The position numbers and the translations under genes are program-made. Below, piece after piece: positions 42,855-51,437 of a stretch of 57,880 nt of DNA. Location: assembly GCF_026586675.1 (NCBI RefSeq), contig NZ_JAODIX010000053.1, positions 1-57,880 of the forward strand, written 5' to 3'. The notes under the pieces are model-generated. The model made no database searches. It saw only the letters and a list, made by a program, of their open reading frames with translations, and was not told the DNA's origin. The DNA is from Halorubrum yunnanense (GTDB lineage: Archaea; Halobacteriota; Halobacteria; Halobacteriales; Haloferacaceae). Each line of letters opens with the position of its first letter. Within the stretch, counting starts at the first letter, position 1.

Positions 42855-43400
42855 CGGCACCATTTATAAGTAGCTTCCCCCAACCCGGTGGTCGACTCTT
42901 CGGAAGCTCCGACCGCTCGTTTTTGAATGGTCGACAGCGGATCGGTGGTGAGCGCTTGCAAAGACCCAGCCGCTCGCTTAGAAGTGTCAGACCGAAGATC
43001 GACGGAGAACACCGCCAAAGCCCTAGTCGCTAGGCCATACGCATCCGGTTACTCGACAGTGAACACCTCCAAAGCCCCAGTCGCGACGGCTCGCGTGACT
43101 CGCTGCGCTCCTCACTCGGTCGCTACCGCTCCCTCGTTGCGGTGCTTGCGTCGTCAAGCGCCGCCCTCGCGACTGCCCCTTTGAGTCCCGCCCCGCACTG
43201 CACAGCACCGCAGCCTCACGCCTCCCCAGCCTCGCGGTTCGCGCTCTCCGAGCGCTCACCGCGTCCAGCGAGGGACCTCCGGTCCCTCTGGCAGCCGGCG
43301 CTACGCGCCGGCGACCTCGCACGCGCACCTCGCGACCGCCGAGGGCGGTCGCTCGGAGGCGCGCGCCACCGCACCGGCGCGTTCATTTATAAATAGTCCG
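42855..43400 (-). repeat. Intergenic repeat element, copy A (promoter, GC-rich core and 57-bp array)
   Basis: Fills the gap between the cyclophilin and dehydrogenase genes. Read on the minus strand: ATTTATAAAT (43385-43394), a conserved GTGCGGTGGCGCG block, self-complementary GC-rich arms, GAGGCTGGGGAGG, then a 37-nt block (43158-43194) identical to copy B, AAGCACCGCA and GAGCGCAGCGAG. A tandem array of four diverged units follows (boundaries ~43070, 43016, 42959, 42902; spacings 54, 57, 57), each holding CTTTGG-type and TATA-like words. No conserved reading frame. May specify a structured RNA; unproven. Confidence 0.8.
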
Positions 43401-45746: not shown

Positions 45747-45857
45747 TGCTCGGTCAGGGATTTGAACCCTGGTCGTCGGCTGACTTCCGAACCGGCGCGC
45801 CGTCGCGCCGCGTCCGTCGAAAGGCCAACATGATTGGCCGGACTACACCAACCGAGC
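45747..45857 (-). tRNA. tRNA-Glu (UUC) with a 36-nt archaeal intron
   Basis: Minus strand: exon 1 45857-45818, intron 45817-45782, exon 2 45781-45747. Acceptor GCTCGGT/ACCGAGC with discriminator A. The anticodon arm after splicing is TTGGC-CTTTCGA-GCCGA (anticodon TTC). T arm CAGGG/CCCTG. The intron sits after position 37. The precursor folds into a bulge-helix-bulge: helix CTTTC/GGAAG, 3-nt bulges GAC and TCA, inner helix GGAC/GTTC, then a 7-bp stem CGGCGCG/CGCGCCG. A GAGTTAAATC box lies ~27 nt upstream. Confidence 0.92.
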
Positions 45858-49053: not shown

Positions 49054-49773
49054 ATGCGACTCGCACGCCTGCTCACGCCGGACGGACCGGTCTCCGGACG
49101 CTACGAGGACGGGACTGTCGTCGCCGCCGACGGCCGCTACGAGGTCGGCCGCGACGGGCGGCTCCTCCCCCCCTGCGATCCGAGCGCGCTCTACTGCGTC
49201 GGGCGGAACTACGCTGAGACGCTCCACCAGATGGAGTACGAGCGCCCCGAGGAGCCCGATTTCTTCATCAAGCCGCCGGCGAGCCTGCTCGCGCACGGCG
49301 AGCCCATCGCGTACCCCGACTGGACCGACGAGCTGACGTACGCCGGCGAGCTGGTCGCCGTCATCGACGAGCGCTGTCCGGACATCGACCCCGCGGACGT
49401 GCCCGACGTGGTCCGCGGCTACACGATCCTGAACGACGTCGACGCGCTCGACCAGCAGGGCCGGACCGCGCGGAAGGCGTTCGACGGCTCCGCGCCGCTC
49501 GGCCCGTGGATCGAGACCGACGTCGACCCGACGAATCTCGACATCTCGACGACCGTGGGGGGCGAGGAGCGCCAGGACGCCAACACCGAACTGATGCTGT
49601 TCGGGCCCCGCGAGATCGTCTCGTACCTCTCGGAGCGGTTCACGTTCGAGCCCGGCGACTGCATCGCGTTCGGCAGCCCGGCGAACCCGGGACTCGTCGA
49701 GCCGGGTGAAGAGGTCGAGATCACCTACGAGGGCGTCGGGACGCTCTCGAATCAGGTGGTCGACGAGACGTAA
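49054..49773 (+). CDS. Fumarylacetoacetate hydrolase family protein
   Basis: 239 aa from the ATG at 49054. FAH signature: ALYCVGRNYAETLHQMEYERPEEPDFFIKPPASL (~50-83), the metal-site Glu in DELTYAGELVAVIDERC, VRGYTILNDVDALDQQGRTARKAFDGSAPLGPWI and FEPGDCIAFGSPANPGLVEPGEEVEI. Likely a 2-keto-acid hydrolase, decarboxylase or isomerase such as acylpyruvate hydrolase; substrate not assignable. Own promoter (CCTTTTCTACG). Repeat element copy B starts just after its stop. Confidence 0.9.
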   Translation: MRLARLLTPDGPVSGRYEDGTVVAADGRYEVGRDGRLLPPCDPSALYCVGRNYAETLHQMEYERPEEPDFFIKPPASLLAHGEPIAYPDWTDELTYAGELVAVIDERCPDIDPADVPDVVRGYTILNDVDALDQQGRTARKAFDGSAPLGPWIETDVDPTNLDISTTVGGEERQDANTELMLFGPREIVSYLSERFTFEPGDCIAFGSPANPGLVEPGEEVEITYEGVGTLSNQVVDET

Positions 49774-49779
49774 CTGACG

Positions 49780-50212
49780 GCATATTTTAAATAATCGTGC
49801 GGTGGCGCGTGCCTGCGAGGCCGCTTCGCGGCCGAGCAGCACGCGCGAGGGAGTCGCTGGCTCCCGAAGCGAAGCGGAGGGTGCCAGCGACGAGGCTGGG
49901 GAGGTGTGAGGTGCGGTTGCGGTGCGGTAGGGGCGGGACTCAAAGGGGCAGTCGCGAGGGCGGCGCAGGCGATGTAAGCACCGCAGGGAGCGAACGAAGT
50001 GAGCGACCGAGGAGCGCAGCGAGCGTGCGCCGCCCTCGCGGCTGGGGCTTTGGAGGTGGTTTCCGAGGATCCGCAGTCAACTACTTATAAGCGAGCGGCT
50101 GGGGCTTTGGAGGTGGTTTCCGAGGATCCGCAGTCAACTACTTATAAGCGAGCGGCTGGGGCTTTGGAGATGTTCGCCATCGATCCGCAGTCAACCATTT
50201 ATAACCTGTATC
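49780..50212 (+). repeat. Intergenic repeat element, copy B (inverted relative to copy A)
   Basis: It opens with CATATTTTAAATAA and GTGCGGTGGCGCG as in copy A. GC-rich hairpin arms, GAGGCTGGGGAGG, the 37-nt identical block (49930-49966), AAGCACCGCA and GAGCGCAGCGAG follow. It ends in a 57-bp tandem array starting at 50041, 50098 and 50155: two identical units and a diverged third, each ending in ACTTATAAG or ATTTATAAC. A 73-aa frame with 19-aa repeats across it is a by-product of 57 being divisible by three; copy A does not keep that frame. Confidence 0.85.
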
Positions 50213-50216
50213 TCGA

Positions 50217-51437
50217 TTAGTCCGGATTCCGTAGCGGCTGTCGCTCGCCGTACGTCAGCGTCCGCCAGAGCCACTCGACGGGGCCGAACCGGTAGTACTC
50301 GAGCCAGAGCACGGACAGCGCCACCTGCACGACCCAGATCGCGAGGACGATCCCGTACTGTTCGACGCGGGTCACGGAGCCGAACAGACCGAGCCCGTGG
50401 CCGTAGAAGATCGAGGTCGCGAGGACGGTCTGCAGCAGGTAGTTCGTGAAAGCGGTCCGGCCGACCGCGGCGAAGGTCCTCGTCATCGGGCCGTCCGGGC
50501 GCCGCTTCGCGTACAGCGTCACGGCCCCGAGGTAGCCGCCGGCGACGAGGAGGCTCCCCACGTAGTTGAACTGTCGCCAGTACAGCGCCGCGCCCGCGCT
50601 CCAGTCGTTGGCCTCGATGTAGACCACGCCCGCGACGACGATCGCGACGCCGACGACCCCACCGGCGACGAGCCGCTTATAAAGACGCGCCGAGCGCTCG
50701 CCGGTCAACACCCCCCAGCGGTACAACGCCATTCCGAGCAGCATCACGCCGCCGATCCGCCAGAAGCTGAAGCCGATGAAGCCGCTCGTCTGCCGCTGGA
50801 ACGAGGCGGAGACGCGGTGGTCCATCTGCTCGAGCCAGCCGCTCCGGTAGGTCGCCACCTCCTGGCGCAGGGCGGCCTCGCTCGGCGCCCACTGCGCCGC
50901 GATGGCGTCGCCGCCGATGCTGACCGCGGCGAACAGCTCCGACGCGGGGACGAACAGCAGGAAGAGCCCGGCGAGCGCCGCGAGCTGTTTCGCCTCGAGG
51001 TCGCGGAGCGTGATCAGGAACAGCGCCGTGACCCCGTAGGCGACGAGGATGTCGCCGTACCACAGGAGGTACGCGTGGAGCAGGCCGATCGCGATGAGGA
51101 CCGCGGTGCGCCGGTAGTGGAGCCGGACCGCGTTCTGGCCCTTCTCCGCTTTGCTCTCGACGAACAGCAGGATCCCGGCGCCGAACAGCGCCGAGAACAG
51201 CGTGATGAGCTTCGACTGCGCGAACACGTGGCCGGCGAACCAGGTCCAGTAGTTCGCGCCGGTGAACTCGCCGTAGGCGACGCCGTCGGCGTAGACGGTG
51301 GGGTTCAACAGCGCGTCCTCTGGCATCGCGAACACCCAGACGTTGATGAGCAGGATTCCGAGGAGGGCGAACCCTCTGAGCGCGTCGAGGCTGACGATGC
51401 GTTCGGAGGGGGGCGTCGGGCCGGAATCGCGTGTCAC
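50217..51437 (-). CDS. DUF418 family membrane protein
   Basis: 406 aa with 8-10 hydrophobic segments. It starts RIVSLDALRGFALLGILLINVWVF, the characteristic N-terminal LDxLRGFALLGILxxN signature. The C-terminal DUF418 part has VGRTAFTNYLLQTVLATSIFYGHGLGLFG and VEWLWRTLTYGERQPLR. Function of the family is not established; it resembles acyltransferase-3-type membrane proteins in layout. Convergent with repeat copy B. Confidence 0.92.
   Translation of the reverse strand: MTRDSGPTPPSERIVSLDALRGFALLGILLINVWVFAMPEDALLNPTVYADGVAYGEFTGANYWTWFAGHVFAQSKLITLFSALFGAGILLFVESKAEKGQNAVRLHYRRTAVLIAIGLLHAYLLWYGDILVAYGVTALFLITLRDLEAKQLAALAGLFLLFVPASELFAAVSIGGDAIAAQWAPSEAALRQEVATYRSGWLEQMDHRVSASFQRQTSGFIGFSFWRIGGVMLLGMALYRWGVLTGERSARLYKRLVAGGVVGVAIVVAGVVYIEANDWSAGAALYWRQFNYVGSLLVAGGYLGAVTLYAKRRPDGPMTRTFAAVGRTAFTNYLLQTVLATSIFYGHGLGLFGSVTRVEQYGIVLAIWVVQVALSVLWLEYYRFGPVEWLWRTLTYGERQPLRNPD

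Follow-up and report, generated by a model that had tools for sequence, protein, structure and literature searches.

Interspersed structured repeats, e.g. REP, BOX, ERIC and Correia elements, are well studied in bacteria. REPs are imperfect hairpins in intergenic DNA, which stand head-to-head inverted in BIMEs, and movement by an IS200/IS605-type (HUH) transposase has been proposed both for REPs and for PATEs. The BOX elements of Streptococcus pneumoniae comprise about a hundred intergenic copies, are enriched between convergent genes, have a predicted RNA fold, and carry a boxB module in variable tandem number (PMC3049150). The PATEs and SMRs of Haloquadratum walsbyi are presented as transposase-free, heterogeneous and palindrome-bearing, with small elements nested inside (PMC3119063). 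The class I intergenic repeats of halovirus HF2 are TATA-bearing, 56-58 bp long, dispersed as single copies, and proven promoters (PMC8707807).

In this study, we analysed a stretch of 57,880 nucleotides from Halorubrum yunnanense (contig NZ_JAODIX010000053.1; the whole stretch is called the window), together with related loci in this and other haloarchaeal genomes. We consider it reasonably probable that one of its repeats, copy B, is a member of a dispersed, intergenic, non-autonomous BOX/BIME-like repeat family, the sense strand of which is built to fold as a structured RNA.

Anatomy and copy number of the repeat

Copy B occupies positions 49780-50212 on the plus strand, and copy A approximately 43395-42880 on the minus strand, with parts common to both. 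The features of the two copies and of the genes flanking copy B are as follows:

49054..49773, plus strand: gene upstream of copy B, from ORF scoring
49782..49793, plus strand: AT-rich left edge of copy B, ATATTTTAAATA (consensus TATTTATAAAT), from a left-edge alignment of 70 copies
49805..49846, plus strand: hairpin H1 of copy B, from the RNA fold, with pair changes in 49 copies
49853..49891, plus strand: hairpin H2 of copy B, its sequence varying in most copies with self-complementarity retained
49892..49904, plus strand: conserved linker of copy B, GAGGCTGGGGAGG, from the consensus of 70 cores
49938..50056, plus strand: hairpin H3 of copy B, from pair counts in a 74-copy alignment
50044..50100, plus strand: unit 1 of copy B, consisting of the H3 3' arm, a GGTGTTC-type block and TTATAA (50085-50090)
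50101..50157, plus strand: unit 2 of copy B, with TTATAA at 50142-50147
50158..50212, plus strand: unit 3 of copy B, diverged, with TTTATAA at 50198-50204, ending at the 3' end of the convergent gene
50217..51437, minus strand: gene convergent to copy B, from ORF scoring
43046..43395, minus strand: left edge, H1, inserted mini-hairpins, H2 and H3 of copy A
42913..43078, minus strand: diverged tandem units of copy A, at spacings of 54 and 57

The first-pass annotation had described copy B as inverted relative to copy A, with a common 37-nt block and array, and this is borne out by an exact inverted match of 37 nt (43158-43194 in A, 49930-49966 in B); further shared blocks of 131 nt and 59 nt both align at 73%. 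Tandem Repeats Finder gave its top score in the window (271) to 50038-50204, with a period of 57 and 2.9 copies. Two registers are in use: the unit rows above start at 50044, and unit identity is given for 50038-50094 and 50095-50151, which are 100% identical, as had been reported of the first two units, the third unit being at 79%. Copy A retains three recognisable units at spacings of 54 and 57, in agreement with the description of its array as diverged with the spacing kept. Matches to an H3 covariance model span 49924-50062 in copy B (E 7e-32) and 43060-43200 in copy A, and H3 itself is interrupted by a GGG/GGG internal loop and by two tandem GA/GA mismatch pairs. Between the stop codon of the upstream gene (which ends at 49773) and the left edge of copy B lie 8 nt, and this gene was matched in 39/39 genus genomes searched. 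Elsewhere in the window (45747-45857, minus strand), Rfam places a 111-base tRNA, probably intron-bearing, that ARAGORN did not report.

With copy B as the query, at least 51 matching places were found in the genome (40 of 215 candidates were scored). The 20-mer GGGGCGGGACTCAAAGGGGC, which lies in the 37-nt block, occurs at 81 genome places at <=2 mismatches and at 0 in the reversed-pattern control, so that the resemblance of copies A and B is not due to chance. An iterated profile was applied to 73 stretches around matches (807 kb including the window) and gave 218 matches that fall into 102 element regions, some 95 of these being substantial. The pair singled out by the first-pass annotation is thus real, but it belongs to a set of about 95 intergenic copies in this Halorubrum genome. 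The regions hold 1, 2, 3, 4, 5 or 6 units in 26, 32, 23, 12, 5 and 2 cases, respectively, with two regions having no detectable unit, and unit spacing is exactly 57 in 110 cases.

The consensus order of the element is TATTTATAAAT, H1, H2, GAGGCTGGGGAGG, H3 and then the 57-bp units. The start of unit 1 falls inside the H3 3' arm (CTGGGGCTTTGGAGG), which means that each added unit brings an extra copy of this arm together with a GGTGTTC-type block and a TATA word. The array forms the tail end of a dispersed structured repeat, a tandem duplication of the H3 3' arm plus the TATA word; the earlier reading had missed the class-wide structured element to which the array belongs. H1 is close to the left edge, and the right-edge side has only a short GGTGTTCACC palindrome.

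Several copies are themselves modified. Small palindromic modules (CCGGCGCGTAGCGCCGG, GAGGGACCGGAGGTCCCTC, GAGAGAGC..GCTCTCTC) interrupt some copies, either between H1 and H2 or within the loop part of H3; they are carried by copy A (roughly 43255-43310) and by the site-B copies of loci L222, L225, L227, L234 and L235. A TIR-like sequence, ATAGCGGGAGYGGGTGTTGCAG, stands ~75 nt ahead of the element in six copies (E008, E011, E037, E041, E058 and E071, at loci L065, L045, L060, L032, L055 and L082) and is followed by an inverted counterpart in E008, E037 and E071, which looks like a larger TIR-bearing vehicle. Terminal inverted repeats shared with a transposon, as expected of a MITE, are not a feature of the main family: the one TIR-like sequence found (of the ATAGCGGGAGTGGGTGTTGCAG type) occurs in only 6/102 element regions, the rest having none of that type.

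Constraint on the fold and its range in haloarchaea

Covariation of the base pairs in H3 is overwhelming. Across 74 aligned copies, 98.7% of cells are paired, double-sided changes number 292 compared with 67 +/- 10 in shuffles, 20/29 pairs covary, and pairing falls to 28-41% when the partner is slid by 1-3 columns. H1, in 49 copies, has changes on both sides in 10/16 pairs, while H2 occurs as 55 distinct sequences in 64 copies, of which 54/63 fold with z < -2. On the element strand, G-T outnumbers A-C by 134 to 10 in H3 (73 to 10 when one mostly-GU pair is left out) and by 57 to 4 in H1, an asymmetry that a cruciform using both strands would lack, and that therefore points to constraint on one single strand. 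RNA is the simplest reading that fits this pattern, with single-stranded DNA also compatible, as far as sequence comparison can distinguish them. Hardly any variation is seen among H3 copies in the GGG/GGG internal loop or the tandem GA pairs, so the arms are not merely being corrected to perfect palindromes. At locus L258 (site A of genome G130), the loop part of H3 is inverted between its arms, as if recombination between the arms had flipped it.

The exact Halorubrum motif is genus-restricted among 117 genomes of the order, save for one variant in G075. Its named matches all belong to Halorubrum or an uncultured archaeon, seven other Halorubrum genomes have from 6 to 163 exact-motif matches, and the same pattern gave 0 matches in other genera of the family; the unit motif was found in 46/52 Halorubrum genomes. 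The H3 covariance model reaches much further, with matches in 60/99 genomes and 29/42 genera of the order (counts per genome reach at least 33) and in 0/53 genomes outside it. All 23 placeable matches, mostly in other genera, sit between called genes. The usual sequence of the element in other families is GGGACTGAAAGGGGC ... GGGGCTTTC; H3 often stands by itself there, sometimes H1-H2-like sequence lies upstream, and the TGGGGAGG word precedes H3 in some other genera too. Over 42 of these wider matches covariation amounts to 308 versus 93, in an alignment fitted to the model itself, and the G-T excess is weaker (35 versus 14 A-C). In one genome (G027, family f12) and at loci L342, L343, L346 and L351, H3 often stands in head-to-head inverted pairs, a few to tens of bases apart. 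A search of the window region and eight loci against Rfam 15 (4227 models) returned sub-threshold matches only, none of them credible. The element was absent from viral contigs by exact patterns, nothing was found in phage records, and three plasmid records had weak matches. A literature search by sequence words of the repeat family yielded no relevant paper.

The conservation of the fold in 29/42 genera, the near-invariance of its unpaired motifs and the strand-specific wobble excess would all suit a true multi-copy ncRNA gene family, in which every copy is transcribed, the RNA acts in trans via H3, and selection maintains copy number. We give this reading a low, though not negligible, probability: related genomes differ in copy number from none or one to over 100, the sites differ between species, and the copies have no consistent promoter. 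The TATA at the left edge was rejected as a promoter of the element's own RNA, as its spacing is unsuitable: it mostly lies only about 7-13 nt ahead of H1, and a start 20-odd nt past it would cut into that hairpin. A second AT-rich word is found about 20-40 nt further upstream in 21/70 copies. A related model, also unlikely in our estimation, is that of an undescribed order-wide structured haloarchaeal RNA with dozens to >100 dispersed copies, acting via the GGG/GGG-loop hairpin. Were it true, the Halorubrum arrays would add competing H3 3' arms, each with a promoter-like TATA word, and array length might tune folding or dosage.

Constraint on one single strand also speaks for a DNA-level element that an IS200/IS605-type (HUH) transposase mobilises in single-stranded form, the hairpins being its recognition structures. 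The hairpin near the left edge is in keeping with this, as is an AT-rich word common to element left edges and some unfilled sites, and PATEs are known in haloarchaea (PMC3119063). However, the element model is absent from the genome's Y1/TnpB loci, three of which have an element nearby, and the Y1 genes at C13 and C38 adjoin TnpB, so that these look like ordinary IS605 units. An IS605/PATE origin of the family was rejected, the element model not lying at the ends of 24 such loci, and we regard transposition of this kind as improbable.

Placement, promoter-like units and turnover

Gene calls were made with our own ORF scorer, trained on the 73 fetched stretches, and 0/102 element regions in this genome overlap a called gene. 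The 86 regions with both neighbours comprise 33 convergent, 42 tandem and 11 divergent placements, the convergent class being enriched (33/86 compared with 142/702 gene pairs, p=4e-5), and in 57/86 copies the array points towards a gene's 3' end. Enrichment between convergent genes, and frequent positions directly past stop codons, with the stop of the upstream gene supplied by the element (as TTATAA or TTTTTAA) in at least 5 copies, could suggest a transcription terminator, a 3'-UTR or an anti-readthrough element between convergent genes. We consider this highly doubtful, because orientation is unbiased in co-directional pairs (18 co-oriented versus 24 anti), 11 copies lie between divergent genes, and a conserved three-hairpin fold whose unpaired motifs are fixed is more than a simple cis terminator requires.

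The first-pass annotation had suggested that each unit could act as a promoter or as a TBP/TFB decoy. The geometry upholds part of this: a conserved GTG follows 28 nt, and GGGGCTTTGG about 20 nt, after the start of the unit TTATAA. Native genes here have their TATA peak at -33 to -28 relative to the ATG, which makes the unit spacing promoter-like and a match to that of native leaderless genes. The 56-58-bp intergenic repeats of halovirus HF2, being proven promoters, would favour the same reading (PMC8707807). The remaining observations run the other way. Most arrays face the 3' ends of genes, and where a start codon does follow an array, the distance is usually 60-140 bp. Flank scores of the unit TATA are at background (-0.69, compared with -0.62 for any TTATAA in the fetched DNA and +0.60 for native promoters, of which there were only 36), the TATA word is missing from 34/125 internal units and 20/97 last units, and the units have no coding signal. 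The annotation had also named randomly varying unit number as one half of what would count against its reading; unit number varies freely, copies carrying anything between 1 and 6 units and a single site having 1 to 3 depending on the species. We hold a promoter or decoy array to be very unlikely.

Where a unit deviates from 57, its length is in most cases divisible by 3 (10/13 in this genome, p=0.0016), and periods of 48, 51, 54 and 57 recur in several Halorubrum species (G021, G124, G143, G145 and this genome). A coding role of the arrays was rejected, as conservation by codon position is flat (0.734, 0.725 and 0.723) and adjacent units have no synonymous excess in any frame. These 3-nt steps in the unit period, occurring without a coding signal, count against the BOX/BIME-like explanation that we prefer.

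Element sites differ between genomes. About a dozen related species carry the element at site B, and G052 lacks it there, while site A is filled here and in G130 (and in G141, by left-edge sequence) and empty in most. In 400 kb of G120, sites E006, E020, E044 and E087 are filled, and E004, E012, E014 and E088 clearly unfilled; the unfilled orthologous sites are too diverged for exact junctions or a target site duplication to be placed, and any of them could be a deletion. At site B, in species with flanks 88-93% identical, orthologous cores (0.85-0.89) are no closer than paralogues (0.84), which indicates overwriting in place, by conversion or repeated insertion. Only G118 has a close site-B core (0.988, i.e. 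98.8%), and on this nearly identical core it carries two units, compared with three in this genome. Identical adjacent units form 18 pairs over 14 elements, whereas identical first units between elements number 0/4753. Taken together, identical neighbouring units and the two versus three units of G118 show that arrays change length locally and recently, and the recent expansion claimed for copy B is well founded.

A mechanism in line with the BOX/BIME-like explanation can be proposed. Copies would spread via an enzyme supplied in trans, and also by gene conversion between copies, and may persist where no promoter is harmed. Arrays would grow when replication slippage or unequal crossing-over duplicates the H3 3' arm with its adjoining TATA word, a process that may be compared to the repeated boxB module of pneumococcal BOX elements. 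Either a protein or the mobilising machinery probably recognises the conserved fold as RNA, and the TATA words may serve as element-edge and unit-boundary signals, which need not be promoters of neighbouring genes.

Comparison with described repeat families

The family would add to the bacterial repeats a comparably abundant archaeal case, with an RNA-like fold that extends across most genera of an order and is not in Rfam 15, and its RNA, if expressed, would form a new class open to testing. Halorubrum genomes carry up to about 160 copies, which are potential sites of rearrangement and gene conversion. These copies may also lead to false ORF calls, some contig ends fall on them, and the variable arrays are ready strain-typing markers.

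As regards HF2, its class I repeats and the 57-bp units are of similar length, TATA-bearing and haloarchaeal, but the unit consensus lacks the HF2-specific word TCTTTAAGTC, and, unlike the viral repeats, this family is absent from phage records and, by exact patterns, from viral contigs. PATEs and SMRs are likewise transposase-free, heterogeneous, palindrome-bearing haloarchaeal repeats with small nested elements; the covarying three-hairpin core and the 57-bp TATA arrays are not among the features described in the consulted parts of that account (PMC3119063). With REPs and BIMEs, the family has in common its imperfect intergenic hairpins and, in G027, H3 copies in head-to-head inverted pairs, but H3, at about 120-140 nt, is unlike a REP, and the surroundings of the element yielded no REP-associated transposase.

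Like BOX, the repeat has about a hundred intergenic copies (about 95), a preference for convergent gene pairs, a predicted RNA fold and an internal module in variable tandem number (1 to 6x). It differs in being archaeal, in that its repeated module is the 3' arm of the main hairpin plus a TATA word, and in having a core hairpin conserved across an order. Judged by its architecture, which is structured, modular and intergenic and includes a tandem part of variable length, the repeat appears to work like a BOX/BIME-type interspersed repeat.
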